From Gyrodactylus bullatarudis (taxonomy: Eukaryota; Platyhelminthes; Monogenea; Gyrodactylidea; Gyrodactylidae): DNA of 36,284 nucleotides. The stretch is taken from the NCBI GenBank assembly GCA_012064415.1, contig SSNU01000041.1:394795-431078 (forward strand), in the 5' to 3' direction. This document shows, one piece after another, positions 1 through 33,025 of the stretch (its first letter is position 1; every line of letters starts with the position of its first letter). A model generated the notes under the pieces. That model searched no databases. It saw only the letters and a program-made list of their open reading frames with translations, and was not told where the DNA came from. The position numbers and the translations under genes are program-made.

Positions 1-573
1 ATGCTTGATTCTGATTGGTTGATTTAATTTCTTCAATGGATCCATTGGCTTAAACCGTGCATATCTATTTGAATTTCACAAGATATCGAAATAAAAATAT
101 GACCATTAGAAAGAGCACAAAATTTTGCATAGGATAGAGTCTTAACACTCTGAGATTTACGGAAAATATGAGCTCTAGCGAGCTTTTAAACCCGAAAAAT
201 ATGACAATTTTCGTGAGTTTTTACAGCTACTCCAAGTTTAACGTCTGGTTTTAAAAAGAAGATTTTTCGCGTCATATTGAAATATACCTCATTAGACGCA
301 GAATTTCCCGTTCTTTTCAATGAGCTAATTAGTTTAATTGTGTAATTGCGTTTTAGACAAGTAATTTGAAGAAATATGTGATCTAATTTGAGTTTTTTGC
401 GAATTTCAGTTTTTTTGGGAAAATTTTAATTTTTTTTCGATAAATTTTTGTAAAAATTAGAGTTTTGGAATCTGGGAAAAATTCTGCACGAACCCTGAAA
501 AAATTATCGATATATCTAAAAATTTATTTTTTTATTTCCCCCCGTGTTATTGAATTAAAATCATTACACTTAC
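1..573. other. AT-rich stretch, no gene seen
   Basis: Presumed start of the intron that follows exon 72 of the minus-strand gene. I see no exon with matching splice sites, no transposon protein remnant and no clear repeat. The open frame that begins at 465 on the plus strand is phenylalanine- and isoleucine-rich AT translation and overlaps exon 72 in antisense. Confidence 0.5.
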
Positions 574-2739
574 CTTGTGATATTTGTTCTTCTGATAAAA
601 TTACGATTAAATTATGTGATGTTTATAATTTAATATTCATTCCGAATTTTTTTTATCTCTTGGTACATTTTTTACTGAGTACGAATTTAATTTTTCATTT
701 TATTTAAATATACCATATATGTAACATTGTGTTTCGAAAAATTCTCTTGCAAAGTATGAGAAATTTATGTCTTGTTAAACAATTATTATGAATCATGATT
801 TATGATGATTCAATTTATCATGAAATCGCTAAAAATAGGATTTTTCTATATCAGAAAATTTGATTTAATTATATAAAATAACGTTTTGAATGCATAATCG
901 AAAGAGATATATTCCATAAAGTTAGATTTTTCCCCAATAGAGAGTCTAATCAAAATTTGCAGATATAAATTTTGAAAAAAATTAATCATTACCTTCCATT
1001 GCTAAAAAGATAATAAGGAAAATTTGATTCTAATTTAGAAATATAATTGAGGACAATTATTGTAACTTATGTTAAATATTAAAGCACATTATAATAAATT
1101 ATGAAATTGTTAGATTCTGAACTCATATGGAAGGTTAGAGAACAACAAGCGGAACTCCCACCCGTTGCTCTACACAAAATGAGACGGAAAAAGAAACTGA
1201 AATTAATGAGACGTTAGCTAAAGCTGATAATCTTCTATCTCCTATCCAGTATACAGCCCCAGCAACTATTATAGAATTGGCAAAATGTGAAAACAATGAG
1301 AAGTCAACAATTGTTGATAATCAAATTACCAGTCAACCTAGTGATAAGAGAGAAAGGAAAAACTGCTCAACAACCGAAAGAAAACGAAAAAGGTACAGTG
1401 GGCAGTTACAAATCGAAAACTTTCTCAAAAGGCAAAAGTAATTAGCTGATCCAGAGATGAATGTTCCCCAGCCTTCCGAAGGTAGTTGCGATATCAAAAT
1501 GAACCAATGGAAGGTCCCAAATAGAGCATTGTAATAGTATATATATTTTAACCAGGGTAGAGTCTGAAGAGACAATATTTTCGTACTTATTATAAATTAT
1601 TGTTTTCTTCAGGCTCTAGGACAGTCAACTTTCATAGAATTTAATGGAAAAAAGATGTAACATTTTAAAAACTAGTGTAGAACCGGCTAAGCAACTCAAA
1701 CTATCACTAAAAATAAAATTCAAAATTTAACTTACACGTCACAGTAAGACCATCTTTAAAGAGAAACAATGAATTATTTCAAATAATAATTTATGACTCA
1801 AATCTTTCATAGATGATGAATGAAAATTCAATGGATAAGGCATCGAAAACAATGCAATTCGAATTGGTTTTCAACAGTATATGCTTAGGAAGCATTGCTT
1901 ACCCTGATTGATCATTTCTGGAAAAAGTTTATATTAATGAAACTTATTCTTATTCATTACAGGTACAACCAAAGTAAGTCTTATTCTACCAACCATAATA
2001 CTAATTAATAATAATAGCAGGACGTTTACTTTCATTACATTTGAATATATATGCTCACCCTTCGATATGGATTCTGATTGAAGATTATTATCATTGAGTA
2101 TTTTATTAATTATCGGAAACTTACACTTGTCCATCACTGAATTCGAATATTTTTTATTCATTTGATCAACTGACGTAGAAAAAGGAAAAAATTCAACATG
2201 GTGTTTTATTTTTAAAGAGGAATTTTGATCAATTCTAACCTTCCCTAAATTTATAAATACTCACAGAAGTGCCACGATCCTGGTTTAGATAAATAAAATA
2301 CACATCTTGGATAATATATCATTACTTATACATATATTATAATATATACTAGGGTTAGGTGGACTTTTTTATAACCAAATAACGAAAGTACTTGATATTC
2401 TCATAGAATTTACTACCTAAAAGTTTTGCATATTTCTGAAAGGTAAAAATCATACCCATTCTTCCTTTTTTCCACCTTTCCAATTGGAATTTTAAAACTT
2501 GAATGCAGAAGTATTATCAAGACTTGCCTCCTTAGTATTTAAAATCTATTCTTAGACTCGGTACGAAAAATCTACCTTGTTCAAATCATGCAAAGAAACT
2601 CACATATTTTGCATTGAAATAAAACTAAAGATTAAATTTTAATTATAATCTAGACAGTATTCATTTTATTTATTTATTGAGAATTAACGATTTATCACAG
2701 ATAATAAGCAAAGCTCTAACTCACTAGACGATCAAGATT
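574..2739 (-). CDS. Micro-exon gene block H, exons 64-72
   Basis: Exons: 2725-2739, 2604-2624, 2265-2279, 2125-2136, 2059-2073, 1903-1917, 1736-1753, 993-1001, 574-591. Lengths are 15, 21, 15, 12, 15, 15, 18, 9, 18. Acceptors before exons 69 (CTTTTTCCAG), 70 (TTCTCTTTAAAG) and 71 (TTATCTTTTTAG) are good; exon 71 has a weak donor, GTAATG. Exon 64 ends in TA and exon 65 begins with T, avoiding a junction stop. The peptide reads VALLDGQVIHIEGNDQSGW and then a VNGR unit. Exon 72 has a donor (GTAAGT), so the gene continues 3', and I found no terminal exon in 1-573. The truncated Penelope copy lies in the intron between exons 70 and 71. Confidence 0.78.
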
Positions 2740-11700: not shown

Positions 11701-14700
11701 CAATGTACACATTTTTAAACTTCAAAATAGGACCTTATATTTTATGAGTTAAATTTTTCTCAAAACTTTATCAGCTCATTTTATTGAGAAATTCAATGGA
11801 TTTTGTACCTGACTATCTAGAGAGAAAAAATGTTTTTTGTAAAAATAATTAATTCCAGTCTTCACATCAACTAGTTTTACATTTTTACGAATAAGTAATT
11901 CACGTAGTTTTCAAACACGTCCGAAAATCCACTTATATTCATAATTCAGAAAATTAAAAGAAGATATATTAAAACCAAATGTACATTTCTTGAAGCATCA
12001 TCAGTGGTAATTCTTCAAAAATGATATTAGTTAAGAGTTTATTCAAGATAATATTTTACAACTCATGAAAGAAATTGTAAAGTCAAAGAAAATAAGAATA
12101 AAATGCAAGCTGAAAAAACACCAAAACTCTCCAATAAATAGCAAAAGTGGAGAGAAAAGTGAAAAAGCTCACATTGGCCAAGGTAATTGAAGGTTATAGG
12201 AATAATAGGTTACCTTTGAAGTTGAGCTTCATAATTATTGTTATTGATTGGAAATGATGTTCTCTTCCAGTCAATTGCATTAGATTTGCGTAGTAATGGT
12301 GTTTACATGTTGATTAATTAAATTAAATTACTATCTAGTTTTCGAGTGCTGAAACCGTTTGAGGAGTCCTTAATAGATCGACATCAAATATACGAAATGT
12401 ATTTCTATAGTAGAATTCATTGATGTTGTCTCAAATAAAAAGTCTCTACTGGGCTACTCTGGTAAATGGTCTATAAATTTTTCATGCTTTTCATGGATAC
12501 TTTTATAAATACATTGCAAGATATACTTTCCCAAATAAATAATCATTTACAAATGAAGAGGAATATAAGGAGAAGAAAGGAGAAAGTATCTACTCTTCTC
12601 CCATCTCCCATAATTCTTTTAATCTGCCTTCTGATTGGTTGATCATTCTGGAGGAAATTTCATGGTCGGTCAAAAATTTCTTATTAACCTATATAAACCT
12701 AATCTATGTGTTCAAAAGATTTATTCCTATAACCTTCAATTACCTTGGCCAATGTGAGCTTTTTCACTTTTCTCTCCGCTTTTGCTATTTATTGGAGAGT
12801 TTTGGTGTTTTTTCAGCTTGCATTTTATTCTTATTTTCTTTGACTTTACAATTTCTTTCATGAGTTGTAAAATATTATCTTGAATAAACTCTTAACTAAT
12901 ATCATTTTTGAAGAATTACCACTGATGATGCTTCAAGAAATGTACATTTGGTTTTAATATATCTTCTTTTAGTTTTACATTTAACTAACGTTAATCCATA
13001 AATTGTACTAAACCTTTAACTCACATGCCAAAGTCCCTTTAATTATTAATTTTATAAAAATCCTTATTTTATAATTATAACATTGTCTTCAAGATGCCTT
13101 CAATATCATGTTAGTGGTTAGACTTAGTAGTAGATTCTCTTTGAAGAATAACACTGGTCGGCAAATTGAATAAAATTTTTTTAATATACTGGATTTTACA
13201 TATCTTGCTCAGAATTTTATAACAAATTCAATGGAGCTATTCATTTTTTTTTTAATTTTTTTGAAGCCACCATGGCACTGAAAGTTTTTGCAGTCCACTG
13301 GGACATTTTTTATCATAACATTGTAATTATTGATTTTAAAGCAAAGTGCTTGGTATCATTCTAAAGCTAATTAGTAAATTTCCTTCCTGTATTTGTTTCA
13401 AAATTTTTCTCATAACATTTTACCACCGTTTTTCAAATCATCGTTTTCACGACATTACTTTACGATCGAATTCGTTATAAAACTCTGAGCAAGATATGTA
13501 ATATTCAGTGTAGTAAAAAAAATTGTGCTGACCAGTGTAAGATGTTTAATTGATATTGGAGTTTAAAATGAGAGTATTGCCGAGCCAAGAATATTATTAC
13601 TTTAGTCTAAACTCATTGGGACAATCAGAAAACGAACGTTATCACAAATTTTTCCTTCGTTCTTTGATCTTGATGAATCAATAACCACACAAAAAATTCA
13701 ACTTCTGAGCCTGTTGGCGATAAACTAATGAAAAGCCAATAGCATATTCGGAAAGGTCATGAATTTTGATCAAGATAGCTTTTTAAAATTTCGAATAATC
13801 CAATCGAAAGTTCATCAAATCATAAAAAAAACCCAGAAAATCGAGCGTATTTTTGTTAAACGTCAGTTAAAAAAAATTGAACCTACTCCACCCCTACACA
13901 TGTCATATGGATCGGCACAGAATTTAAATTTTAATCAAATAGTTAAAAAATTAATAGGATAACGTTTACGGATTTTGCGAAAATTAATTTTTGAAATATA
14001 ATTATATTATAATATACTCAACTACAATTTTTGTCTTTGAATAAAGAGTAGAACAAATTCTCACGTAATAAATCCACTGAAAAGAAAAGTGAGAATTAAC
14101 AAAAATAATGGTGAAAGTAAATAACATTCATTGAAAAACTTCAAATCAGAGAGCAAACTCACGCATTTCTAAGAGGAACATTGATTCAGGTAAATGAAAA
14201 AAATCTATTCTTTCAAAATATTCAGAATGTCTTGACTATGAGTAAATCTATCTTCATTAACTATGAATAAAGCTTCATTTTTTCTTTATTAATGTATTTA
14301 TGGGTATATATACAGTGAAAATGGGAAATCAGTGAGTGGACAGAAATCACTAGTGAAAGTCGGAAACCAGTGAAAATGGGGAAAGAAATAAATTTTTCAG
14401 GGCAGACATTAAAAATTATATATGCATTGTGTATTATGTGATATAAAAGGCAATGTATTTGACTTTTTGCATGTAATCATATTCAGTATCTTGTTTGTAT
14501 TCTAAATGTATTTTGGGGTAGACAGGTGCATATTTTTTTTATTTTCGTCCTAGAATGATACACATAAGCCAGGTTGACCAATGAAATCACAGCACAGATT
14601 TGATAAATTTGTCAAGCATAATTAACTATGATTATTTTAATTATAAAGCCTTACAAAAAACATTCCTTAGAAATTCGTGCAAAAATCCTAGAACTTCATC

Positions 14701-17700
14701 AAGAAGACAAACATTGGGAAGAGTTCGCAAAGTTATCAGGTGTTACCTATTCCACAGCTTATAAGTGGATTATTTCAGAAAACCCCACACCACAATCAAA
14801 AGGAGGTTCTTTCAACGTAAAGATGAGACCTGTTCACACGGATGCACTTCTTGAAATTGTTGAAAATAATTGCCAGGTGACTCTATCGCAGAATTCTTGG
14901 AGATTAATTATCAGCTCCGTGTCTGCTTCAACACAATTAAGAACAGCTTAGATGGTCATGCATTTTCCTTTTGGAATGAACAACCCTTTAAATAAGGAGA
15001 AGCGAGCGATATATGTCAGAAATTTGCTCCAACAACGGTCACAAGGACGTCACATTGTATGGATCGACGAGACTAACTTCAATCTTTTTTGCAAACGAAC
15101 TGAAGGAAGATCTCGAATAGGTACCAGAGCAACGATTGTCAATGTTAACAGTAAGGGTCAAAATCTCCATTGCATCGGAGCAATTCCATCCAATGAAGTT
15201 ATTGATCTTCAATACAGGAGGGGCTCGTTTAAAACCATTAATTTTCAAGGTTGGCTACGTGAGCTTATTGAAATATGCTGGGATAAATAAATGGTTCCTT
15301 TGACCATTGTTGTTGACAACGCTCCCGCCCATTCCAACAGTGAAGCTGTAGCTGAAGACGCCACAATTGAGATTTTACGTTTAGCTCCCTATTCATTTTT
15401 ACTGAACCCGATTGAACTTGTCTAGATTTTTTTCAAGATTGAAATGAAAAAGCGTTTAGCAGAAGTGAGAAATAAAATTTCGGAGTATGGCAGAGATCAT
15501 CAAAGACAATTAACAATGACCCACAAAGTTCTAAATAACAAACAAGAAACGAAAAATACGGTCACAAGTTGCAGATTTTGAACAGAACATAGAATTTGCC
15601 ACCATATTTCAAATGCCACTTTTGTGCAACTTGTGTTAGTAAAAAAATAAAGACTAAAAAGAGCGTATTCAAATGATGAAGAAGTAAGCTAAGGTTTCCG
15701 AAATTCTCAATGATTATACAAATAACTAATTATGATAAGACTGACACAAATCTAACAAGCGAAATAATTGAGCCAGTAGATGAGAATATCTCTTAATGCT
15801 AAAATTAAAATTGACATTTAAAATATAATATGAGTTTAAAATATTTGATTTTAATTACGCTGAATCTCTGAAATCAAGAAAATTTCATATCAACCAAACA
15901 ATATCCAGATAATAAAGAAGAAAAATTATGAAATTAAACTTATACCCTTTAAAAATGAAGCCTTAATAGGAAAAAACCTAGCTGGATTCAATCTATATTC
16001 TATGAATTAACCACATGCTTTAATTTCGAAATAAAAACACCTCAAGCTAAATTAATTCTTCCTTTATCAAAAAATCAAAGTAAAGAACTCAGCAGCCATA
16101 GATAGCTCTTTAGAGTAGGTCGGAATTTTTTTCAAGCTTTCCCTTTAGTAAATTGAAGATTTTGTCTGATCTGTATCGAAAAAGATTGCACAATTTCAAT
16201 AAAATTTATGAAAAATTTAATTCATTTGGAATAAATCTCAGTTACGTAGGATTCAGTTAATAGAATTCAATAAGATCTAAACTAAAATCCCAGTATTTTG
16301 GCATACATAGAACATAATAACGTCGAAAAGAGTATAAAAAATTTCATTATTTCGATTTTTAAAAAGAAACTCACGTATTATAGAACCTCCTGAATGTTTA
16401 TGTATTGTTAATAATTTTAATTATAAGAAACAAATTGTTGGATATCTTTATCAAGATAGGAGATAAATTTAATCACGAACTAGCTAGAAATTGAGAGAAT
16501 AAATCTCAAAAAATGGGTATCAGGAATATAAGAATACAAAACCAAGAAAAATACGGCATAGTATTTATACAAAGAGAATGTATTAATAGATCATCATCAA
16601 AAGAAATGAATTTTAAAATATTCAAGAAAATAGAAAAATTTTAGAATTTTTTGAAACTACAAAATCAATGAATTCAAGGTCATTATCTCTGATCAGTTCA
16701 TTGTTAGGATAAACTCAGATCAACTATTATGTTGCTATCACTGATGAAATAAATTGATTCTCAGTAAATTTTTCTCTTCTTTTGAATGGTATGCATTTTT
16801 TGTTGATCTGTTCTAAAACATAATTTAATATTTCCTAAAAATAACCCTCTACAATGTAGAGGTTACATACTATGGTATATAATTAATATAAAGCTATTCT
16901 CGATGAATTTGGGAATGATTTTTATGAAAATTTCATTTTTTCATCAAGGAATCAAAATTTCTGAAAGTTTTCTTGGTAACTGATTCAAAATGTTCTCTTT
17001 CTTTAATTTAAGAAAAAAAATTTGGAGACATTTTTAATTCCAAGCTAACGCAATCTTCTCATTTTTCTGAACTTTGAGTTCAAGATTTTTGTTGATCCCA
17101 AGTCTGAGTGGAATCAAACGTTATTAATCATTTTTTCAAAAAAACCCTCCATTTACGTGCGAAAGTCTACTTTCTATTTTTCAATCATTTTTACTGGTTG
17201 GAAATTGATAAACTAGAATGATCCAAGATCAATTCAAAATGACGGGTTTTTTTCAAAAAATTAGTAAGAGTCATTATTTTCCTTGTCTAATAATCCTGAG
17301 AAATAACGTTTGATTCTTCTCAAACTTTCTAACAGAAGTTTAAAAAATTAAAAAATCACTCCAGCTCGAAATATAAAATGTCTTTAACATTTTCTAGAAA
17401 TTTTTTTCATGTAAAAGTGTAAATCAGTTGCCAGAAAATCTTCCGAAAATTTTGAAACCTTGATGAAAACCGTTTTTTTTAAAAACATGATATATCAAAT
17501 TTATCGAGAGCATTTGTAACTGTTGAATATATCTTAGAAAAATTTTAACCTTTGCCAATGAGCAATATAGAATTGTCGATAACTCACTGATCTGGGATAC
17601 TAAATTTTCATAAACTTTACTAACTAGTATGATTATGATGAACAAATTTACAAGATCGAATGAGAATTAGTTTACACTAAACTCTCTAAAAAATGTATGA

Positions 17701-20700
17701 CTGGAAACCCGACGCACAAAATAAAATCAATTGTTTACTCATGAGTATTATAATGAAAATATAATAAATTTATTTGAGATTTGAGAGATTTCAGGGCCGA
17801 AGATGGATTAATTTCTGCCTAAATTTGATGACATTTTTTTGAATTTACACTTTGTAACACTTTCTTCTCAACCTTTTTCCAGAACTTTAGGTCAAGTAAT
17901 AATAAGAAAAGTTTTTTCTTCTCATAGAAGCATAAAAGTTATACCATCAGTTTTCATTCTAAGAAATAAACAGGGGTCTGTAGAATCCTAATTGTATGTT
18001 TCCACAACTTCCTCACAAAACTAAAAACAAGATATACTATCTACAACTAAATAATATTTTTTCTAAAAATTAATTTTGATCACCATAATTACACTAAACT
18101 CTCTAAAAAATGTATGACTGGAAAACCCGACGCACAAATCACAGCTTTGGAAAAAAGTGGTCTCTACAAGATGTGTTTTCATTACGTCATCGTTGTGAAA
18201 AATAAACGGGGATCTATAACTAAATTCTGAATGATATTTCCCAATTTCATTTAAAAACTAAAAATGAAATCATATGAACTTTAAACTCGTCTAGTTTTTA
18301 GGCAGAATTATATTTCTGGCTGAGATTTACGGAGGTGTAACAGTTTTTCATTCTGCATCTGATGGTATAACTTTTATGCTTCTATGAGAAGAAAAAACTT
18401 TTCTTATTATTACTTGACCTAAGGTTCTGGAAAAAGGTTGAGAAGAAAGTGTTACAAAGTGTAAATTCAAAAAAATGTCATCAAATTTAGGCAGAAATTA
18501 ATCCATCTTCGGCCCTGAAATCTCTCAAATCTCAAATAAATCTATTATATTTTCATTATAATACTCATGAGTAAACAATTGATTTTATTTTGTGCGTCGG
18601 GTTTCCAGTCATACATTTTTTAGAGAGTTTAGTATAATTATGGTGATCAAAATTAATTTGATTAGGGCACTTTTTCATATGGGTTTATATATATTCATAA
18701 GCAGAATATGATATGAATCGATTTTTTTGGGTTTGAATTTTAAAAAGTACTCTCTGACGCTAAAATATTTTTCGCAAGGATTACGAAGCCCAATATTTTT
18801 GTATTTATGATCTTTGATAAAATAATTCAAATTTTTGAATGGTTTCAAAATGGTTGAAATACCTTTTGAGACATTACACATTACATTTTAATAAGTAGTT
18901 ATTGTTTTAATAATATTAATCATTCTGCTTTTATCATTGCATAACTTTTATTATAAAATTTACCGTCTAAATGATCTAAAGATATAAGAAAATATTTAGT
19001 GGGAAATATTTCTTCGAAAATTTTGTCTATCAATAGAAATATTCATTTCTTAAAGGATATAGAATAAGGCCGAATATTGAGTAAAAAGGCTTTTATTTAA
19101 CGGGTTCACAGCAGACTCCCACTCCGGCCTGATAAAGTTTTGTATACATGGACTTTATATTTCAATTTGATAAAAATATTTATTATATTATATCTTGTTC
19201 ATTCTTTATTATAGAAGAATATTTTTCGAAATAAACCGAACACTGATAAATTGTAGCTAGGGTTACCTTTTCTATAGCCTGTTCAGCTCTAATTTCTAAA
19301 TTCAATAAAACTCTTAAGCTCATTTGGAGTCATCCTTCTCCTATAATTAGTAAAGGGAGATCTGTTCGGACTCAAAGATAAGCTGTGGAATAAGTAATAT
19401 CTTGGCATATTCTCTCCAGTTCTCACCATTTCTATAAAAATCCTAAAACTTTTTTCTCATATCTCGTTGAGACATAATTAAACCCCCCTTTTCACGGCAT
19501 GCAAAATGAAATAGCAGTTTGTTCTACTCTTTCTCTCAAAATAACATACAAAAAGTAAAAAGCTATGTATCTAATTATACAGCTAAAAAATATTAAAACT
19601 GTTAATATTTTCAATCCTTTTTTTGTCTACACGTACCTTTCACTGTCGTATCTGCAGATATTAATGCATTTAAATATGTAATCTCAAGGTTATTCAACTT
19701 TTAACATTCTAAAAGTTTTATTATCTTACACGAAATCATATCTAGAAATTTGAGATTTAAAACATTTTATTTTATTATTTGAATTATTTTAGAAATATTC
19801 AGATTATAACATACTTTCTGCCACTTTTATTAAATTAATAAAATGATGAGTTTAATATTATTTGAGTGAAAGAAGAGGCGATACACAAATTACAAAAACT
19901 CACTTATATGGAACCCTAATTAAATTCATAATTTATAAGGATATGATGTTGAATAATACAGAAAAATTATTTTTATTGGAACATCTTATTTTTATTGGAA
20001 CACGAGTAATTACTAATTGCCCCCCCCCTAATTAAGTATTATTTATCTCGACCAATCAGAATGCAGCAAGTGATTTCTATACATTTAGGATAGGATAATA
20101 AGTTAGTTTTTGTGAAAATGGGAAAATTCAGGGGAAAATGAGTGCCAAATCGATCTTCAGCACATTTTAAAACCCCTGATCATCATTGGAGAGGAAAAGA
20201 CAACAAATTGGTGAGTATATACGAGAAAATGTATTTGGTAAAATTATGTCAATTACAAAAAGTGAGATAGTTTTTGAAGGAAGAAAGGACAGGAGAAACT
20301 CTTTGAAACTTTGATTGGACACATATAGATATACGATTTGAGCATAAAACCAAAAGCGAATCCCATAAGAATCAACAGAAATAATCACTAAAACTCCGTC
20401 ATTGAAACTTGATCAAACGTTGAGCTGCATAGTTATAAAGTCGAAAATCAAAGACATCGGTGCTCAATCCTGAAAATCTTCCTTCTTTTGAGACTAAATT
20501 AATCCTCATTTGTTGGCTCAAATGGTGGTAATTGATAAATTGGTTGGACTTATTTTTTTCATAATATNNNNNNNNNNNNNNNNNNNNNNNNNNNNNNNNN
20601 NNNNNNNNNNNNNNNNNNNNNNNNNNNNNNNNNNNNNNNNNNNNNNNNNNNNNNNNNNNNNNNNNNNNNNNNNNNNNNNNNNNNNNNNNNNNNNNNNNNN

Positions 20701-23700
20701 NNNNNNNNNNNNNNNNNNNNNNNNNNNNNNNNNNNNNNNNNNNNNNNNNNNNNNNNNNNNNNNNNNNNNNNNNNNNNNNNNNNNNNNNNNNNNNNNNNNN
20801 NNNNNNNNNNNNNNNNNNNNNNNNNNNNNNNNNNNNNNNNNNNNNNNNNNNNNNNNNNNNNNNNNNNNNNNNNNNNNNNNNNNNNNNNNNNNNNNNNNNN
20901 NNNNNNNNNNNNTTTGGTTTTATGCTCAAATCGTATATCTATATGTGTCCAATCAAAGTTTCAAAGAGTTTCTCCTGTCCTTTCTTCCTTCAAAAACTAT
21001 CTCACTTTTTGTAATTGACATAATTTTACCAAATACATTTTCCTACTTATTATCCTATCTAAATGTATAGAAATCACTTGCTGCATTCTGATTGGTCGAG
21101 ATAAATAATACTTAATTAGGGGGGGGGCAATTAGTAATTACTCGTGTTCCAATAAAAATAATTTTTCTGTAATATGAGTTAATGAAATGATATGAGTTAA
21201 AAAAATTGTAAAAAACTGTTGTTTATTTTATTAATTTCTTATTGATGCTATACCCCTTTAACCCTCAAAGTCCAGGAGAATTTATTTATTACCCGCATTC
21301 AATCCTTTGTCGATACCATATTTCGTTAATTCGTCGATTACGAGTCTACAGTTTCTTAACGCAATTATTTTTGTATCAAAAGTTATCGATCGAAAATTGG
21401 GTCATTTTTGATCTAAAAACATGCTATCTTTGTAGACTTAGCAGATACAGTTCAGGTGATTGCATATTTGAATTCTACAATGTAGAATCTACAAGTATCT
21501 ACTACTCAATAAAAGTTTTTTCACATTTTATCTATAACCTTAGAAAAAGTATTATTTAGTTGTAGTTAGTATAGGTTGTTGAAAGTGGGAATGCTGCATT
21601 ATTATTTTGTTTAAATAATCATCATAACCATTGAAACTTTATCAAATAGGGATATAAGATTTTTTTATTTCAACTCACTTAAAAATACTAGAAATATGAG
21701 ATTCAATTATATAAATAACAATACCCAACCTATTACTGCGATATAGATTATAGTTTATCTTATGAAAACTGTATACTATGCCTGTCAATGCTGACCTCCA
21801 ATTGACATGGCATGAGGATAGCCCATATATAAAATTACTTACAAATCGATTCTCTGAAGTTCACTGAAATAAAATTATATTGATGAATATGAGAAAAGCA
21901 TATATTACAAAAAATGAATAAATGTGATTATTTAGCTATATATCTAGTAGAGATAGTTCATAATAATCAAGGTAGCAATTATAATTTAGTTTTATTTCCT
22001 CACTCATAGAGAACAACTCTTGAAAATCAATATACATAATTAGAAAGAGGAAATCTTTTGTTGCATTTTTCTGTTGATTGTTAGTAAAAAAATAATAATA
22101 ATTTTCATCACATAATATTTCTTACTGAGCACCATCCCTTTAAAGATTATAGATTAATCATAATAAATATTTATCAGTAGAAACCTGTTGAATTTCTAAT
22201 TTATTGAACCAAACTTACACAATAATGAAAACACTGAAAAATAATTCATTTTAATAATCATTAAGTTATACATAGTTGAGACTATTACTTTAACAAAAAC
22301 AACTCAGTTTTAATTTTATCTTATTAAAATACGAATTTTCTGATGACTTGACTATTCTTAAATTAGTCATGTCAAATTCAAAATTGATTATCTTATTTGC
22401 TTTATTTCTATCAACCAGATGATCCTATTTTTTCATGATTGATAATCTATATCTCGGCAAATCAACAGAAATTTGATTTAACCCATTTACTATCAAGTTA
22501 TTTTATTTTCATATCAATATAAGAACTCTGCCAAAAGTGTATGAGATTCGAGAAAAATAATAATCAGTTCTTATGTTCCATTTACTTACTTAGTTCCATC
22601 GCTTTTTAAAATTTTGATATTTAAATTCTAAAAAAAACTTACTTCTGGATTAAATACCTGAACATATTTTCGTATTAATATGTTAGTTCAGCTTTCAAAA
22701 CAATGAAAATTAATATCAAAGAGATTAGAGGTCTCACATTCGATTACCACTATTCGAATAGTTATTTTTAATTAATAAATTAGTTTTTAGTTATACGATT
22801 GATGAATTCATGCCAATTTAAAAGAAAGTCTGAAAATCCACTTAAATTTTCCCTGAATTTCTACTTGTTGTTTAAGAACCAGCTGTTCATATTTTAACGG
22901 ATCATCAGTGGTGTCTCTCCAAAATTGATAAGTTCAGATATATTGATTAGATAATAATCCAACATTTTTTTAGCAGTCCAATAGTATTGGATCTTTTTAT
23001 TATTATTTGGTTACAGAGAGGTAAACTTGCATTGTCTGTATGCTCGTGAGTGATAATGATCACTATCACTTACTTAGTAGTTGCGTGGTGGGATTTATTG
23101 AATTTATAAAAACAGAAATGGGTGGAATAATATTCTAGACATATTTCACGTTATCGATTAATGTTGACTCACTTGACAGCATATTGACTATGAATAGACA
23201 AATAGAATATTTCTATTATTATCAGAAATAATATTTTTAAACCATTCTCTTTATCAAAGTTTTAAACGCACTTTCCATCTGATCCCCTATAAGATTATAA
23301 AATATTCAATAAGGTTCTTTCAAATAAATAAATTGATGCTTGGAAAAGTTTGGAAATTAATCCTTACAAATAAAGTCTGTATCTGAAGATAATGTAGAGA
23401 TTAAAAATAACCAAACCTCATTATGAGAATTAAACATACGCTAATCTCCTTTTTGCACTTTAGAAGAGTAAATTCTTATTTTGAGCAGAGATTGAAATTG
23501 ATATGAAATACGATAAATATATAGTAATCAAACTCACTCATAGAAGCTACGTAAACAGTTTTTCATAGAATGTTTGATAATTTGAATTTCGAGACTATTA
23601 TTAATTTCAAGTTTCTAACAAAATTTTCATAAAGAGGCTTAGAAGTGAAAATTCAATATCTAGTAATAAAGCTTTCATTTCACCGGTTTTAATCAGACCA

Positions 23701-26700: not shown

Positions 26701-29700
26701 CGGATTCAAGATAGTAATTTTTATACACATAACAGATTGTATTGATCCGGGGATTTCAGACAAGACATATAATTAGTGATAAAGATTTTATTTTGACAGA
26801 TCGTATAAGAATCTTATTCTGGCTTGATTTATATATATATTGCAATCATTTTATAGAACTCGATAGTTATATATAACCTTCGCCGATTATTTATATATAA
26901 TCAAGCCTCTGGTCATTATATATAACTCTTATCTTGAATAAAGTCTTAAAGAGCAAACCCTAAAATAATTAAAAAAGATCTCTTCTCGATAGATTTTTTT
27001 TCAATTTTCCACACACCATAATTATCCTCATTTAATTTCTGTAGAACAGAGATTACATGTAAAGGTCTAGAAAGTATTAAGGTCAACTATTTTTTCGTTC
27101 ACGATGAAAATCGATAATGATTATTTTCTGATCTGCTCAATCAATTCATTTCATTTTCTAATCGAAATTCGGTCTCTCTCATTTAGATTCATTTTAGAGA
27201 CAATTATATATTGCTTACATTCCTCCATCGCTAAAAAGATGCGAATTTGTATATATTTTTTAATCGGAAGTCAAATATATCTTACATGATTAAGAATAAG
27301 CTTCTAATAAAAAAATTAAAAAATAAATATTATATTAGCTGTATTTGATGATTGCAGATTTCATCTTTTATTGTGCCTATGCTATCACTCATTCATCAAA
27401 GCTGATTATATTATAATTGGTATTCTATGAAAAGAGTACCAGGAAGTAAATCTTTCAAGAGTGCTCGTGATTATGAATATCATAATTAAAATAATTTATT
27501 TCTTCTTGGCTATAGTTTATATTTAGTTCAATATGAAACGCTCACCTATTATCACTGAGATAAGATAAGCGATAAATATGTTTAGATTCTTATTTTATAT
27601 CATTATCAAAGCATTGTTATTGATGATGCATTAAGTAATGTACATTTGGCCTCTATATATATGTTACTGTACAAAGCTTGAATTAGTACATAGTTAGTAT
27701 AAAGCCTGAAATTCAATGTTTGAACTAACTTTTTACTGCAATAATACATTATGTATACTTTTTATCATATTTGTATATTACATGATGTATAAGACAAAGT
27801 ATTATTAACTTCTCATTATAGAGGGGGGGGATTCACACTCAGTCCTCATTGAGGATTGAAATAGTGATTCACATTGTGTACTACACAATGATGACTCTTC
27901 TTAGGTTTCAATCAAATTATTAATCCTTGGGTAGATTTCAATAGCTAAAGATCGTAAGGAATTTATTTTTTTTAAACATCCTCGAATCTGATATCTTTAA
28001 TTCTCATCAGTCTCAATTTGAAATGTATAATAATCTGAATTATATGATTAGTAATTAAATTTTTTCTCGAGTAGCTCTATATCTTAAATGACTAACACAT
28101 CCAAAGAACAAGCGAGAACTTATAATACTGAAGTTTGGGATCTTCAGTAATTCTTATACCGAGAATCGAACCTTATCATTATTCATCTTGATATATTTTT
28201 AATGAAATGATCTTGATATATTTTTGTTCAATTATAATTTGAATTAGTTTTATAATAAGAACATGAGCCTTTTACAGAATAGTCATCATAGTACACAATG
28301 TGTATCACTATTTCAATTCTCAATGAGGACAGAGTGTGAACCCCCCCCTCTATTATGAGAAATTAATTCAAGGTAATCATATTACATATATTATACGATA
28401 TTTTGTCTTATACATCATGTAATATACAAATATGATAAAAAGTATACATAATGTATTATTGCAGTAAAAAGTTAGTTCAAACATTGAATTTCAGGCTTTA
28501 TACTAACTATGTACTAATTCAAGCTGTGTACTTGTAAATCTAGAGATTAACTGATTCCGGGTTTGTACGGTTATATATATATGTACCAGCTTGAATGCAA
28601 TTTATCCCAACATAAAGTTCACAAATGAGATCGAGAGTGACGAAAAGATAAGTTTCCTAGAACTTGAAATTGTTCGAGATGGTTCATGTGTAAATACTCG
28701 AATACATAGGAAAACGAATGCCTCAACCCTATTCTTACCTTTGCATAGCTTTTACCCGATAAAAACAAAGAAAAGTGTTGTAAGCTATGCTTTCCTTTCA
28801 ATAGAACGATTAGTCTCAGCTGAATATGTGAAAGACAAAAAGATCGAAGCTAAAAACCCTCTTGAAAAGAGACGGATATCCAGATAGTTTCATTGAGAAG
28901 CATTCTCATCCAAAGGATAAAACAAAAGCGGAAGAGGAACCTGAAAAGCCAATATTCCTGGTTCTTCCCTTCAAAGGAGATGCAAGTAAATCAATTGTTA
29001 ACAAAAAGCTAGCAAATATAACCAAAAGAACGTTCCCTGGAAGGAAATTGAAACTGATTCAACGGAATACAAAGGTTCTGAACGGCAGAAACAAAGATGA
29101 AATCCCGAAACTCAAGAGAAAAGGAGTTATTTACCAGTTCACATGTTCCTGTGAGTCACTTATATCGGCCAAACTACCCGATTCCTTGGAGAAAGAGTCA
29201 AAGAATCCAAAACATATAAGCTCGGTACAAAGCCATATCAAGGACACAGGACACCTAGCGGACGAATCAAACGAAACAAAATTCTCTATCAGGTCAATCC
29301 ACGTGAATCCTGCAAAGTAAGGGCGTCAAACCTCGACTGTGCAGTAAAGCATTTTATTACAAAGATGAAGCCTGACCTGTGTGTACAGAAGATAACGGGA
29401 ATGAAATTGGGTTTCAAAGAAAGAGAAGTGCATATCAAGAGAAAACAAATAGATAAAATATGCAAGGTCCTTGAACCAATTGGGAAACCTAAAAGTTCTA
29501 CCCAAATTGAAACTAGAGATCAAAATGAAATTAATGAGAAGTTGACAACAGTCGATAATCAACAAATTCTAGTTCAATGCACTGCCCCAGCAACAATTAC
29601 AGAAATGCAAAAACGTGAAACAAACGAGATGTCGACAGTAGTCGATAATCAAATTATAAGCCAAACTGTAATTAGTGACAAAAGAAAAGGAAAAGGCCAC

Positions 29701-32700: not shown

Positions 32701-33025
32701 GTTAAATGCTTCAGTAGTTATCATGAGGCCAGAGAATTGATACGAAGAAGACGCAAATTTTTAAAATCAAGTTAGATTGAAAGAGGAGTATATATATCTT
32801 TTGACTGAAATATATCTAAATTTTTAAATATTAGAGAATCATGTAGATAAAACGAATAACGATTAAATGTTGTTGAATACAAACTAATCACTCACATATA
32901 GATGTAATGTCTAATAATTATTTAAGCGAATAATTATAATTTTCAAGACAATCAGTAAATGTCAATCTTGAGCAATAATTAATGTAGGATATTAAATTTT
33001 TGGAAAAACTCACTTCACGTTATTG
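574..33025 (-). CDS. Micro-exon gene, about 72 exons, partial (gene-level entry)
   Basis: Spliced reading frame of about 72 exons of 6-24 bases (mean near 14), 984 coding bases in 32 kb. All exons lie between AG and GT. Sixty donors are GTRAG, 40 of them GTRAGT; the rest are GTAAAT, GTATGT, GTACGT or single variants. All lengths are multiples of three and all exons share phase 2: the first base closes a codon and the last two open the next. In that phase no listed exon or junction holds a stop; by my count about 22 exons have one in phase 0 and about 12 in phase 1. I favoured acceptors giving a multiple of three and dropped four candidates with stops, so part of the regularity is selection. 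However, all 23 ACTCAC (GTGAGT) sites I found outside repeats pair with the nearest or second-nearest AG at such a distance. The product, about 328 residues, repeats [DN]G turns followed by strand-like residues. No signal peptide, start or poly(A) exon was found. Known parallels are schistosome micro-exon genes and aphid bicycle genes; no homology is claimed. Confidence 0.85.
1150..1573 (+). mobile_element. Truncated 3' end of a Penelope-like element, second copy
   Basis: This stretch aligns by eye with the last 430 bases of the Penelope copy at 29500-29930. Shared landmarks are the GCCCCAGCAAC string, GATAATCAAATTA, GGGCAGTTACAAAT, AACCAATGGAAGG and the terminal AGGGTAGAGTCTGAAGAGAC. It therefore holds the Lys/Thr-rich tail of the element's protein, broken by stops, and the 3' untranslated part. 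Similarity stops abruptly at 1573, inside stem II of the hammerhead motif that the other copy carries whole. It is antisense to the micro-exon gene, in the intron between exons 70 and 71. Confidence 0.8.
3584..4183. repeat. Non-autonomous element with imperfect inverted ends
   Basis: About 45 bases starting ACGAAATTGAGAGG at 3584 are repeated in inverted form ending at 4183, with the shared core TTCAAAG-AAAA-TT-ATTTTTT. The roughly 500 bases between hold no recognised coding sequence. It lies in the intron between exons 63 and 64. The ends are diverged, so the exact borders and target-site duplication are not resolved. Confidence 0.45.
4309..6344 (-). CDS. Micro-exon gene block G, exons 53-63
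   Basis: Exons: 6333-6344, 6236-6253, 6141-6155, 6059-6073, 5881-5895, 5596-5601, 5481-5489, 5112-5135, 4549-4563, 4395-4412, 4309-4320. Lengths are 12, 18, 15, 15, 15, 6, 9, 24, 15, 18, 12. Exons 53 to 57 form a tight group with introns of about 70 to 160 bases. Exon 57 has the acceptor ATTTATTTACAG. Exons 58 (6 bases), 60 (24 bases, purine-rich acceptor) and 61 (a nearer AG would give 7 bases) are the least secure. The peptide includes NHSGQHFIKINTSESYPL. The small MITE at 4878-5041 lies in the intron between exons 60 and 61. Confidence 0.72.
4878..5041. repeat. Small MITE with 23-bp inverted repeats
   Basis: TGGCTAAACTAAAGATGAGC at 4878 is repeated inverted at 5019-5041 with one mismatch. 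Further inside, a TATAGGG-type motif is also mirrored. Total length is about 164 bases, with no coding capacity. The flanks read AATTT and ATTTT, so the target duplication may be a short T-rich string, but this cannot be settled by eye. Confidence 0.65.
7592..11236 (-). CDS. Micro-exon gene block F, exons 40-52
   Basis: Exons: 11222-11236, 11012-11029, 10900-10908, 10266-10286, 9977-9991, 9113-9124, 8755-8769, 8666-8677, 8578-8589, 8505-8519, 8158-8178, 7852-7863, 7592-7600. Lengths are 15, 18, 9, 21, 15, 12, 15, 12, 12, 15, 21, 12, 9. Exon 43 (21 bases) sits between TATCTTTTTTAATTAG and GTGAGT and is open only in phase 2; phase 0 starts with TAA and phase 1 contains TGA. Exon 46 ends AAG|GTGAGT. 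Exons 48 and 50 end in TA, and in both cases the next exon begins with T, so no junction stop forms. Exon 51 has the weak donor GTAAAA. The peptide includes ELDGEKYLKS, again a DG unit. Confidence 0.8.
9238..9404 (-). mobile_element. Penelope tail fragment, minus strand
   Basis: Read on the minus strand, 9404-9310 contains GCCCCAGCAACAGTTACAAA followed by GTGAAACTAACGAGA, which matches the tail of the Penelope protein at 29580-29630. It continues to a decayed hammerhead-like end, TTAACCCCAGTAATTTGAT, near 9275-9238. This is a short, diverged remnant lying head to head with the plus-strand family A fragment that starts at 9447. Confidence 0.5.
9447..9504 (+). ncRNA. Decayed hammerhead ribozyme, family A
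   Basis: Matches the 3' two thirds of the intact family A motif: ACCGGTGAAATAAAAGCTT, then stem I ending TTCACTTG. The catalytic CUGAUGA has been replaced by AATAAATAA, so it should be inactive. The following 30 bases also match the sequence downstream of the minus-strand motif at 23990, including TTTGAAGAATTT. Confidence 0.55.
9555..9720 (+). repeat. Diverged copy of the arm of the 11955-12971 foldback
   Basis: CTGAAAAAACACCAAAA, GTGAAAAAGCTCACA and TTTTGAACACA appear in the same order and spacing as in the arm and inner flank of the large inverted repeat at 11955-12971. It directly follows the decayed family A hammerhead at 9447, which suggests a composite insertion. Confidence 0.55.
11960..12016 (-). 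ncRNA. Hammerhead ribozyme motif, family B, left arm
   Basis: On the minus strand: ACCA, then CUGAUGA, an 8-base weak stem II, GAAA, a palindromic UGUACAU stem III, U as the base before the cut, then UGGU. ACCA pairs with UGGU (proximal stem I), and GAAGA upstream pairs with UCUUC downstream (distal stem I). The layout is that of a type I hammerhead with a minimal stem III, as described for Penelope-like elements and retrozymes. The short stem III suggests activity as a dimer. Stem II is poor, so activity is uncertain. Confidence 0.55.
12910..12966 (+). ncRNA. Hammerhead ribozyme motif, family B, right arm
   Basis: Inverted copy of the motif at 11960-12016 with the same core: CUGAUGA at 12921-12927, GAAA at 12937-12940, UGUACAU, U at 12948, then UGGU. 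The predicted cut follows 12948. The two copies face opposite ways; if the whole foldback is transcribed as one RNA they would be locked into the long duplex, and only separate transcripts could cleave. Confidence 0.55.
13025..16389 (-). CDS. Micro-exon gene block E, exons 36-39
   Basis: Exons: 16375-16389, 14163-14168, 14065-14076, 13025-13036. Lengths are 15, 6, 12, 12; donors GTGAGT, GTGAGT, GTGAGA, GTGAGT. Exon 36 has a tandem acceptor (CAGGAG) that would remove one codon. Exon 37 is only 6 bases (AAATGC) between TTCCTCTTAG and GTGAGT; such a short exon is the least certain of the four. Exon 38 has a textbook acceptor, CTTTTCTTTTCAG. The 2.2-kb intron between exons 36 and 37 contains the IS630/Tc1-like pseudogene, and the one between 38 and 39 contains the MITE at 13151-13538. 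Confidence 0.72.
13151..13538. repeat. MITE with ACACTGGTC ends
   Basis: Starts ACACTGGTCGGCAAATT and ends with the inverse, GTGCTGACCAGTGT. The inverted repeat continues for about 80 bases with interruptions, including TACATATCTTGCTCAGA and its mirror TCTGAGCAAGATATGTA. Flanking TA on the left and TA overlapping the right end fit a Tc1/mariner-type insertion. The 388 bases carry no open frame of note. It lies in the intron between exons 38 and 39. Confidence 0.72.
14628..15600 (+). pseudogene. IS630/Tc1-like transposase pseudogene
   Basis: One reading frame from 14628 covers a DDE transposase with in-frame stops at 14949-14951, 15288-15290 and 15423-15425. The N-terminal part (KKHSLEIRAKILELHQ) is a helix-turn-helix. 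The catalytic core shows WIDETNFNLF (first Asp), GRSRIGTRA, then VVDNAPAHS (second Asp) after the second stop, and LLNPIE (Glu) with 32 residues between second Asp and Glu. The last part decays after the third stop. I found no convincing terminal inverted repeats. No frameshift is needed for the core, so inactivation is by point stops. It sits antisense in the intron between exons 36 and 37. Confidence 0.8.
17588..19915 (-). CDS. Micro-exon gene block D, exons 30-35
   Basis: Exons: 19904-19915, 19815-19823, 19730-19741, 19637-19651, 18964-18975, 17588-17599. Lengths are 12, 9, 12, 15, 12, 12. Donors are GTGAGT, GTATGT, GTAAGA, GTACGT, GTAAAT, GTGAGT. The peptide reads VPYNGRKYDFVYDSERSF, another [DN]G unit (NGRKYDFVYD). 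The intron before exon 30 contains the palindromic element with the 345-base run of N, so exons could be missing there. The intron between exons 34 and 35 holds the nested foldback element at 17674-18633 and one decayed hammerhead lies between exons 33 and 34. Confidence 0.75.
17674..18633. mobile_element. Nested foldback element
   Basis: Arms 17674-17950 and about 18359-18633 are inverted copies beginning ACACTAAACTCTCTAAAAAA. A third copy of that end lies at 18091, in the same orientation as the left arm, followed by a diverged version of the inner sequence (AAATAAAC-GGG-TCT). The third copy and the right arm together look like one element (18091-18633) set inside or duplicated beside the first. 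No protein is encoded. It lies in the intron between exons 34 and 35. Confidence 0.7.
19067..19130 (-). ncRNA. Decayed hammerhead ribozyme, family A
   Basis: The minus strand keeps the stem I frame (AGGCCG pairs with CGGCCU; AGU pairs with ACU) and the AUAAAAG of stem III. The core has become CUGCUGUGA, and GAAA has become UAAA, so it should not cleave. Retained outer pairing with lost core is typical of an old copy. Confidence 0.5.
19957..21171. mobile_element. Palindromic element interrupted by an assembly gap
   Basis: Left arm 19957-20354 and right arm 20913-21171 are inverted copies; 20568-20912 is N. Both arms share the nine-base C or G tract (20020-20028 and 21119-21127), the ATTCTGATTGG / CCAATCAGAAT box and the segment ending GAGCATAAAACCAAA. 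The left arm has about 120 extra bases at 20104-20223 and a short duplication near 19981. The protein calls that span the N run are artefacts. It lies in the intron between exons 29 and 30. Confidence 0.75.
20568..20912. other. Assembly gap, 345 N
   Basis: Unknown bases in the centre of the palindromic element. The gap coincides with the loop and inner arm of an inverted repeat, which commonly breaks assemblies. Its true length, and any exon in it, are unknown. Confidence 0.99.
21680..23546 (-). CDS. Micro-exon gene block C, exons 18-29
   Basis: Exons: 23538-23546, 23440-23457, 23368-23382, 23173-23187, 22738-22749, 22643-22657, 22590-22601, 22219-22233, 22126-22137, 22004-22018, 21843-21863, 21680-21688. 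Lengths are 9, 18, 15, 15, 12, 15, 12, 15, 12, 15, 21, 9. This is the densest and most protein-like part: it reads NGNRMYLIQNDGTNVFIIV and then VDGAQVVLYD. Together with RLYF just before, it resembles one or two blades of a YWTD or similar beta-propeller, by eye only. Exons 23 and 24 are separated by only 41 bases, close to or below the usual minimum intron length, so they may be mutually exclusive. Exon 28 has a second in-frame acceptor (9 instead of 21 bases). Confidence 0.83.
22878..22912 (-). ncRNA. Decayed hammerhead motif, family B
   Basis: The minus strand reads ACCA-CUGAUGA and ends with UGGU as in the foldback copies, but the GAAA has become AAUA and stem III no longer pairs. The flanking TCTCCAAAATTGATA and ATAATA strings match the flank in the left arm near 12012-12055. 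Likely inactive. Confidence 0.45.
23642..23709 (-). ncRNA. Hammerhead ribozyme, family A, core mutated
   Basis: Same layout as the motif at 23990: UAUAUAUCUAGC leader, stem I, CUGAUUA in place of CUGAUGA, ACCGGUGAAA, UGAAAGCUUUAU, then ACU. The G-to-U change at core position 8 should abolish cleavage. It lies about 340 bases downstream of the intact copy on the minus strand, with related sequence on both sides, so the pair is a tandem repeat. Confidence 0.65.
23990..24050 (-). ncRNA. Hammerhead ribozyme, family A, intact core
   Basis: Minus strand, 5' to 3': CGAGUG, UAAG, AGU, CUGAUGA, GAACCGGU, GAAA, UAAAAGCUUUA, UU, ACU, AACUAUU, CACUUG. CGAGUG pairs with CACUUG and AGU with ACU (stem I with an internal loop). 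A-UAAA pairs with UUUA-U around AGC (stem III). The predicted cut is after the U at plus-strand position 24006. Stem II is weak (G-U closing pair). This is the type I form with minimal stem III known from Penelope-like elements and retrozymes. It lies in the intron between exons 17 and 18, sense to the gene, so it would be present in the pre-mRNA. Confidence 0.75.
24425..27230 (-). CDS. Micro-exon gene block B, exons 8-17
   Basis: Exons: 27219-27230, 26161-26175, 26067-26078, 25378-25395, 25044-25055, 24950-24964, 24866-24880, 24751-24759, 24542-24556, 24425-24445. Lengths are 12, 15, 12, 18, 12, 15, 15, 9, 15, 21. Donors include GTAAGC, GTATGT, GTAATT, five GTAAGT, GTGAGA and GTAAAT. Acceptors are strong, for example CATCTTTTTAG before exon 8 and TTATTTTTTCAG before exon 16. 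Translation gives SDGGIYKLFW, INGN and IDGM, three of the [DN]G units. The weakest member is exon 10, whose donor is GTAATT although its acceptor (TTTTTATTGCAG) is very good. Confidence 0.8.
26761..26826 (-). ncRNA. Decayed hammerhead ribozyme, family A
   Basis: The minus strand retains AAAAUAAAAUCUUUAUCACUAAUUAU (in part) and the AAUCAAGCC leader with the TATATATA run upstream, but CUGAUGA is now CUUAUAC. Identified by alignment to the intact copy; inactive. Confidence 0.4.
27546..33025 (-). CDS. Micro-exon gene block A, exons 1-7 as numbered here
   Basis: Exons in transcript order: 33014-33025, 32896-32910, 32566-32574, 30679-30687, 30573-30581, 30296-30304, 27546-27554. Lengths are 12, 15, 9, 9, 9, 9, 9. 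Donors are GTGAGT for the first four, then GTACGT, GTGAGC, GTGAGC. Acceptors of exons 3, 6 and 7 have clear pyrimidine tracts ending in TTTTTCAG, CTTTTTAG and TTATCTCAG. The peptide begins NNVKHYIYIIKNFDNLDEYS. Exon 1 is only the first one visible: its acceptor shows that at least one exon lies further upstream. The intron between exons 6 and 7 is 2.7 kb and holds the Penelope remnant and a foldback element. A further 9-base candidate at 30207-30215 has a poor acceptor and is left out. Confidence 0.78.
27616..27650 (+). ncRNA. Decayed hammerhead motif, family B
   Basis: UUGAUGAUGCAUUAAGUAAU followed by GUACAUUUGG matches the family B core with C3 changed to U and GAAA changed to GUAA. It directly precedes the foldback element that starts at 27669. 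Inactive by sequence. Confidence 0.45.
27669..28531. mobile_element. Foldback element with G8/C8 tracts
   Basis: Arms 27669-27901 and about 28278-28531 are inverted copies, beginning GTACAAAGCTTGAATTAG on the left. Each arm contains an equal eight-base G or C run (27823-27830 and 28341-28348). The loop is about 375 bases without recognised coding sequence. It abuts the 5' break of the Penelope remnant and lies in the intron between exons 6 and 7. Confidence 0.75.
28591..29790 (+). pseudogene. Penelope-like retroelement, 3' part (RT end, decayed GIY-YIG, tail)
   Basis: First piece (28591-28887) starts LNAIYPNIKFTNEIESDEKI, the conserved stretch after the reverse transcriptase catalytic core in Penelope-like elements. 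A frameshift near 28850 leads to LKRDGYPDSFIEK and then FLVLPFKGDASKSIVNKKL and RTFPGRKLKLI (28862-29320). The endonuclease begins VIYQFTCSC, but the YIG box and catalytic region are deleted (ESLISAKL); DTGHLADES follows. A third frame gives MKPDLCVQK and a Lys/Thr-rich tail to 29787 with an internal duplication (NEKLTTVDNQ / NEMSTVVDNQ). The reverse transcriptase palm and fingers are absent. Defective, 5'-truncated copy on the strand opposite the micro-exon gene. Confidence 0.88.
29905..29964 (+). ncRNA. Hammerhead ribozyme, family A, at the Penelope 3' end
   Basis: Plus strand: CGGGG, UAG, AGU, CUGAAGA (position 7 is free in the CUGANGA consensus), GACCCGGC, GAAA, UAUAACGUUUAU, C, ACU, then CUCG. 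Stem I pairs AGU with ACU, and CGGG with CUCG beyond an internal loop. Stem II is closed by G-C. Stem III pairs A-UA with UA-U beyond one mismatch. The predicted cut is after C29947. It follows the Penelope protein tail by about 115 bases in the same orientation, which ties this ribozyme family to the element. Confidence 0.75.
31255..31330 (-). ncRNA. Decayed hammerhead ribozyme, family A
   Basis: The minus strand keeps outer stem I (CAAGUAA pairs with UUACUUG) and GAUCCGGCGAGAUAAUAGCU, but the core reads UUGAUGG and GAGA. Probably inactive. The sequence upstream on the minus strand resembles that upstream of the 23642 copy (GCATTCTCAAAC, then a TATTTTTT leader). Confidence 0.5.
31670..32130 (-). 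pseudogene. Second Penelope-like family, GIY-YIG end and 3' region
   Basis: On the minus strand 32116-31929 reads HILNNNGHKINFEEVKILSV, then RKRLIHESLEI and NIEQCWIQLFG before a stop. This is the C-terminal half of the GIY-YIG region of Penelope-like elements (HxxxxGHxxxFxxxKIL, then xRLIxE with the catalytic Glu). Downstream at about 31760-31700 is ACTGAAGAAGGCGTG, a hairpin, then CGTCGAAACGTTTGG, the 3' signature common in this group. The rest of the element is missing or decayed. It belongs to a different lineage from the copy at 28591. Confidence 0.65.

Follow-up and report, generated by a model that had tools for sequence, protein, structure and literature searches.

The stretch of DNA analysed here (36,284 nucleotides, referred to as the window) lies at the end of a contig of Gyrodactylus bullatarudis (SSNU01000041.1, hereafter C404; 431,078 bases), the right edge of the window (position 36284) being the contig end, and it carries on its minus strand a long array of predicted micro-exons. 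These are AG/GT-bounded segments modelled with lengths that are multiples of three (3n), and in the core set described below each intron is set to interrupt a codon after its second position (phase 2). The array covers about 38 kb (C404 about 389,655-427,819); it overruns the left edge of the window by about 5 kb, to about position -5139 when counted from the window's first letter, and then ends. Both limits given in the original prediction (574 and 33025) do fall on exons, namely on a modelled micro-exon at 574-588 or 574-591, which has two possible acceptors and hence stands outside the core set, and on that at 33014-33025, but the array continues beyond the left-hand one.

Two chain models of the array were built, and the 3n rule was imposed in both of them; with splice matrices trained on C404 the model contains 99 exons, and with matrices trained on a second locus (contig C252, see below) it contains 95. 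The two models have 74 exons in common, and 73 of these constitute the core set, since exon 14838-14849 was removed because it sits in a transposase open reading frame (ORF). Another exon, 33628-33645, was proposed by the C404-trained model only, lies inside the transposon at 33222-34686 and was never part of the shared set. The core exons, 62 within the window and 11 to its left, have a mean length of 14.5 nt, and depending on the model a total of 92-99 exons is predicted over the approximately 38 kb. When exons of 3-45 nt are allowed, 75 are placed in the window; 71 of these measure 6-24 nt, the size range originally proposed, and their 1113 nt (371 codons, where about 328 had been claimed) make up 3.1% of the window, in keeping with the coding share of about 3% put forward before. 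Neighbouring core exons are separated by a median of 232 nt; 21 of the 72 gaps are no longer than 120 nt, and 11 exceed 1 kb, the largest reaching up to 3.8 kb.

On the minus strand, the array of predicted symmetric micro-exons in phase 2 is real and far exceeds what chance would produce. A first count found 41 copies of the motif GTRAGT on the minus strand of the window but only 11 on its plus strand; among candidates preceded by a pyrimidine tract, 19 of 20 were 3n on the minus strand, while those of the plus strand were distributed 2/2/2 over the three length classes. The first splice matrices had been trained on 3n exons and were therefore biased; this bias was removed by the use of untrained, textbook-like matrices (typed from general knowledge, with exon lengths free between 6 and 36 nt) and of C252-trained matrices without a length filter. 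The untrained matrices picked 90 exons on the minus strand of the window, with length classes (modulo 3) of 70/10/10 (binomial p 7e-18), and 33 on its plus strand (11/13/9); a 44.8-kb flank on the left yielded 53 exons on the minus (19/19/15) and 44 on the plus strand (19/10/15). The C252-trained matrices picked 85 exons (72/9/4) and 18 exons (6/6/6) on the minus and plus strands of the window, and 21 exons each on the two strands of the flank (7/6/8 and 11/5/5, respectively). Over the whole array, 92 of 106 exons picked with free lengths were 3n. Hence, the statement that all exons are 3n and in phase 2 is correct for the large majority, but among the 85-90 exons picked freely in the window 13-20 fall into the other length classes, and the chain models impose the 3n property.

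One might argue that a stop-free chain can be assembled from any AT-rich DNA, as AG...GT pairs are abundant in it and a chain search selects the best of many. The exhaustive GT/AG search with controls that had been suggested as a check speaks strongly against this explanation: a stop-free phase-2 chain of 3n exons (6-36 nt, C252-trained matrices) contains 72 exons on the minus strand of the window (score 278.5), in line with the original estimate of about 72, whereas the same rule gives seven exons on the plus strand (score 10.1) and 2-14 in 20 dinucleotide shuffles (scores 2-36). With C404-trained matrices, the chain on the gene strand comprises 104 exons if stops are allowed and 99 if they are forbidden; when stops are allowed, the opposite strand yields 10 and the 44.8-kb flank 12, and the flank together with the other length classes gives 10-18. 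Together with the 3n excess and the conservation between paralogues in C252, these data render a chance origin extremely unlikely; for the array as a whole it is refuted, although single exons can still be products of chance.

In the 3n exons picked by the untrained matrices on the minus strand of the window, stops occupy 3 of 267 codons in the phase-2 frame, in contrast to 47 of 337 and 12 of 267 in the other two frames (Fisher p 8e-10 and 0.03). The 104-exon chain, which was assembled with no stop rule, contains stops in 10 of 459 in-exon codons and in one of 103 junction codons of the phase-2 frame, while the other two frames have 65 of 563 and 26 of 562; the absence of stops claimed earlier must accordingly be toned down to a frame that is nearly open. 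Without a stop filter, none of the 92 adjacent joins of the C252-trained model and one of the 103 joins of the C404-trained model create a stop codon, and if all possible forward exon-to-exon joins are considered, only 47 of 4278 (1.1%) would do so. Four of 93 exons end in TA or TG, the dinucleotides that make a stop possible with the next exon, as compared to about 10.6% of the interior codons that start in this way, and the same deficit is found in three stretches of C252 (L023, L024, L025). We consider it very probable that splicing joins these AG/GT-bounded segments into a messenger RNA that codes for protein, in the way known from the micro-exon genes (MEGs) of parasitic flatworms.

The core exons, found by both models despite their different training loci and positioned outside transposons, are all located on the minus strand and are given here in the direction of the predicted transcript. 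Upstream of the first exon seen lies a mariner-like transposon (33222..34686) with 205-bp terminal inverted repeats (99%), which contains an ORF at 33925-34500 that we take to encode a transposase. The 5' part of the array comprises exons 33014-33025, 32896-32910, 32566-32574, 30679-30687, 30573-30581, 30296-30304 and 30207-30215. After a gap of 2.65 kb that harbours an inverted-repeat element (27669..28531), a dense group follows with exons 27546-27554, 27286-27303, 27219-27230, 26067-26078, 25378-25395, 24950-24964, 24866-24880, 24751-24759 and 24542-24556, and then 23272-23286, 23173-23187, 22643-22657, 22590-22601, 22219-22233, 22126-22137, 21843-21863 and 21679-21687. The next gap (1.76 kb) is occupied by a nested inverted-repeat element (19986..21161), part of which (20000-20400) has at least 43 matches in the genome, itself included. 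Exons 19904-19915, 19815-19823, 19730-19741, 19550-19582 (33 nt and less certain), 18964-18975 and 16375-16389 come thereafter, the last two being separated by a 2.57-kb gap with an inverted-repeat element at 17672..18637.

A gap of 2.2 kb with ORFs on the plus strand (14628..15290), presumably also of transposase type, precedes exons 14163-14168, 14065-14076, 13025-13036, 11222-11236, 11087-11098, 10900-10908, 10266-10286 and 9977-9991, and within this group a further inverted-repeat element (11950..12976) fills a gap of 1.79 kb. Towards the left edge of the window are situated exons 9113-9124, 8869-8889, 8755-8769, 8578-8589, 8505-8522, 8158-8178, 7380-7397, 6881-6895 and 6333-6344, followed by 6236-6253, 6059-6073, 5881-5895, 5596-5601, 5481-5489, 4549-4563, 4395-4412 and 4309-4320, and by seven exons with a weak SH3-like peptide, whose coordinates are given below. 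Twenty more modelled exons, 11 of them core, lie left of the window between -1874 and -5139 (positions 4861-8126 of the adjoining stretch L013). Between the exons of the window and those of the tail, a dispersed repeat of about 550 bp is present in two inverted copies (window 1-551 and L013 8174-8724); about 50 matching pieces of it occur in the genome among the matches listed.

Mapped transposons lie in five of the 11 gaps above 1 kb, and in the longest gap, a sixth case, copies of a dispersed repeat are present. Such a locus could in principle be a decayed micro-exon pseudogene riddled by transposons, given the five transposon-like insertions between core exons and a 5' end that was not found. 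Its phase-2 frame is, however, open by the count of the untrained matrices cited above (3/267), its splice sites are strong and the insertions are confined to the spaces between exons, so that we regard decay as very improbable.

The 3' end of the array has a character of its own. Exons left of the window encode GGGFGG, SYGG, GFGG and GGGSG, and then follow six copies of a 15-base Ser/His exon; the resulting low-complexity tail, GGGFGG.. and (SSSSH)n, is coherent across separate exons. Five head-to-tail units of 92-93 bp, each consisting of one 15-base exon and a 77-78-base intron, occur here, and their introns are 87-100% alike. The units, at L013 5105-5581 (window -4895 to -4419), fall into two types arranged in the order A B B A B, which suggests a higher-order duplication. 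Judged by eye, the last predicted exon reads LIQICFNKLFDW followed by a stop, with AATAAA farther on. The last core exon (-5139 to -5104) had been scored with a weak donor, yet is better read as a terminal exon. A DNA search for a paralogue of the 3' end or a second haplotype, in which 40 of 54 candidates were scored, listed nothing besides the region itself and a single dispersed repeat.

The modelled protein has about 350-500 residues, lacks its N-terminus and carries Gly-rich and Ser/His-repeat stretches towards its C-terminus. Seven consecutive exons (2725-2739, 2604-2624, 2265-2279, 2125-2136, 2059-2073, 1903-1917, 1736-1753) encode a peptide with a weak match to the Pfam family SH3_9 (E 0.025 and 0.044) and to the SH3 domain of p47phox (E 0.02 for the whole, i-Evalue 1.3 for the best single stretch); after 17 Pfam queries this weak match is only a lead. 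Further weak Pfam matches (GH43_C2 0.26, CdsD_C 0.06, cwf18 0.25, Stn1 0.11, Chlorophyllase 3) and PDB matches (XTRP3 1.1, ribokinase 2.9) were taken as noise.

These features invite the view that the locus is a real MEG-like gene with a structural or intracellular product, in which the micro-exons persist through drift and the duplication of exons, and not because they supply variation. Gly-rich and Ser/His-repeat tails are typical of structural proteins, the SH3-like peptide would fit, and no signal peptide was seen in the window. Set against this are the modest E values of the SH3 match (0.02-0.04 after the 17 queries), the missing 5' end, owing to which the absence of a signal peptide says little, and the products of known MEGs, which are mostly secreted or anchored (PMC4350168, PMC5825161). 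We therefore judge a structural or intracellular product to be rather unlikely.

A second and larger locus of the same kind is present on the minus strand of contig C252 (about 387000-516994; L023-L027, L035), where tandem paralogous Cys-rich genes are found. The genome had been scanned for a donor followed by a short intron and a 6-24-nt exon, with the reversed pattern as control, and matches cluster on this strand at 389-512 kb (at least 11 of 134, and 9 of 48 in a complete listing). Untrained matrices give 3n lengths for 201 of 229 exons, and five 10-kb pieces contain 51, 36, 23, 15 and 41 phase-2 micro-exons, the same rule finding one or two on the opposite strand. Two tandem genes of C252, modelled with the C404-trained matrices, have exon-length strings that match with a score of 32, a value reached by none of 2000 permutations (mean 19.0, maximum 29), and in a pairwise blastp without composition correction, with gene limits set by eye, the two peptides share 31% identity across 65 residues (E 1e-10). 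Because these neighbours match although the matrices came from C404, they offer independent evidence that such segments are coding. The C252 array reaches within about 100 bases of the contig end, near which a 12-nt exon is repeated five times.

Among the five C252 pieces, seven hydrophobic ATG-started exon candidates were noted (no control was run), four with a phase-2 donor and two of these signal-peptide-like. C252 resembles an array of tandem genes, and C404 may likewise hold several neighbouring micro-exon genes, the model having run through their boundaries; the long gaps of up to 3.8 kb between core exons would be compatible with this. Inside the C404 array there is, however, no signal-peptide-like first exon in phase 2 (both hydrophobic ATG-started exons have another phase), and more than half of the gaps above 1 kb are those in which a transposon (five of 11) or a repeat copy (a sixth) resides. 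A division of the array into several genes is thus possible but doubtful.

Seven other candidate stretches were examined. Two of them, on the plus strand of contig C226 (3001-8000 and 15001-25000; L032, L033), represent a third array with the same phase, and one of its exons encodes an acidic stretch (SSEDEEESDFED). C311 (L031) has about 12 exons of unclear phase and C133 (L028) five exons in a different phase, while L029, L030 and L034, chosen from pattern matches, contain little or no array.

Several observations weigh against the interpretation of the C404 array as a coding micro-exon gene. Individual exons are uncertain, for models of 99 and 95 exons agree on 74 and both impose the 3n rule. 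The 5' end and first exon were not found in the window, with the contig stopping at 36284, and neither of the two hydrophobic ATG-started exons in the array has a phase-2 donor, so that no first exon with a signal peptide emerged. The deficit of TA and TG at exon ends may partly be explained by the donor-site consensus, and in stretch L027 of C252 it is reversed for TA (6.5% of ends versus 3.6% inside); in another C252 piece, L026, a different frame scores equally well. Genome-wide totals of the scan pattern did not exceed those of the reversed control (134 versus 215, 124 versus 682 and 48 versus 93), and for this reason only the clustering on C252 and C404 counts as evidence. Finally, searches of Pfam, the PDB and a large protein collection revealed no homologue besides the SH3-like match: no Pfam family scored above its cut-off, and the collection gave none at E <= 0.1 among the 7996 best candidates scored. 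MEG families diverge fast, and similarity to described MEG families was likewise not found in a collection that may hold few of them.

The background of the genome points to a flatworm. Its mitochondrial contig (C13; 14,926 bp) has all genes in one direction, in the order cox3-cytb-nad4L-nad4-atp6-nad2-nad1-nad3-cox1-cox2-nad6-nad5; COX1 alone was identified by a search, while the remaining gene names and the absence of atp8 were assigned by eye. We take this order and the lack of atp8 to be of the parasitic-flatworm (neodermatan) type. The frames of C13 are open under genetic code table 9, and those of stretch L014 under table 5 as well. A search for the telomere repeat TTAGG gave no match and is uninformative. 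The genome measures 77.3 Mb, with a GC content of 30.5% in 188.6 kb of nuclear loci; for gyrodactylid genomes, sizes of 67-91 Mb and GC contents of 31-39% have been published (PMC12677651). A monogenean of gyrodactylid-like type is thus probable.

In the flatworm MEGs, about 80% of the coding region resides in symmetric exons of 6-36 bp (PMC5825161), and two long exons typically flank them (PMC4671649). A counting definition calls for at least seven exons, of which half must be 3n and shorter than 70 nt and four must follow one another, and by this definition 109, 35 and 52 MEGs were counted in three species (PMC7653826). The predicted C404 structure has 73 core and 95-99 modelled exons, 92 of 106 exons of free length (range 6-36 nt, longer ones having been modelled under the 3n rule only) are 3n, and the mitochondrial contig, with gene labels largely assigned by eye, indicates a platyhelminth genome. 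Further marks of MEGs are a signal peptide, for the most part encoded by a long 5' exon, and protein variants that arise when exons are skipped, which the symmetry of the C404 exons and the low share of stop-forming joins (1.1%) would allow. On these predicted features, the locus is best filed as a flatworm MEG of unusual scale and not as a new kind of gene. The original prediction had placed it beyond the families it could name, but this very anatomy defines flatworm MEGs (PMC7653826, PMC5825161), and a parasitic flatworm is what the gene order of the mitochondrial contig suggests.

The array shares with the MEGs of Schistosoma, Echinococcus and Hymenolepis its series of successive 3n exons in the range of 6-36 nt (PMC5825161, PMC7653826, PMC4350168, PMC4671649). 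The share of symmetric exons is likewise comparable (26 of 33, or 79%, in MEG-26 to -32 [PMC4671649] and 78-85% of the free picks here), phase 2 is reported for the terminal exon of MEG-8/-9, and tandem gene families, transposon-rich loci and difficulty for gene finders are common to both. The C404 array differs in its 73-99 predicted micro-exons, its product of about 350-500 amino acids and the lack of any sequence similarity found, whereas the MEGs described in these sources have the two long flanking exons and small products, those of head-enriched MEGs averaging about 10 kDa. SmVAL6, a MEG-like venom allergen-like (VAL) gene of S. mansoni, is likewise long and divided into numerous small exons subject to alternative splicing, but it has 38 exons (PMC4350168, PMC4015677) and a VAL domain, which the Pfam scan of the protein modelled here did not reveal.

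Nor do all known families have fewer exons, as had been supposed. Aphid megacycle genes contain more than 100 micro-exons (in M. sacchari, 118 spread across about 100 kb), and nearly all exons of the related bicycle genes are in phase 2 (PMC9168663), as are the many internal exons here. Megacycle exons average about 53 nt (2092 amino acids in 118 exons) in comparison to 14.5 nt in C404, and these are genes of insects, while the genome under study, with its flatworm-type mitochondrion, is not that of an aphid or related hemipteran; the likeness is at most convergent. The myxozoan Tetracapsuloides bryosalmonae, a fish parasite, has a named micro-exon gene, TbMEG1 (PMC7923790), which was compared by name only; since this organism is a cnidarian, the MEG label extends beyond flatworms. 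In the open-access literature searched, no description of monogenean MEGs was found; PMC4398949 treats MEG organisation as gained in the Neodermata and names Hahn et al. 2014 as one of its sources for this, and a prior report of MEGs in Gyrodactylus may therefore exist.

We suggest that the minus-strand segments, with their mean of 14.5 bases, would be joined into one messenger RNA, or into a few neighbouring ones, from which many alternative exon sets could give rise to families of slightly different proteins. Because the exons are symmetric and in phase 2, loss, skipping or duplication of any one of them would leave the frame intact, and exon number would grow through head-to-tail copying of a 15-base exon together with its 77-78-base intron. 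By analogy with known MEGs, the product would most likely be secreted or exposed at the surface, at the interface with the host. We put forward only tentatively the more far-reaching proposal that no coding gene so far recorded is as finely divided as that of C404 (about 95 exons of fewer than five codons on average, in one phase and with nearly all joins stop-free), that exon skipping and unit copying generate combinatorial protein variants, and that at least one more such locus, with more than 200 micro-exons on C252, exists in this monogenean genome.

Exon definition normally requires exons much longer than 6-21 nt. If the array is transcribed, one has to ask how the spliceosome defines dozens of consecutive exons of this size and whether all of them are used; it would also be a MEG architecture on a scale undescribed for flatworms in the literature passages compared, in what is probably a monogenean lineage. 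The locus provides a worked case of micro-exon multiplication via tandem copying of an exon and its intron, and such genes, easily missed by frame-based annotation, can be detected by a short scan for splice pairs.

Two similar open stretches on the plus strand of the window, at 1150-1440 and 29365-29787 (CTAPATI..., ...VDNQ), were noticed by eye and are probably copies of one repeat.
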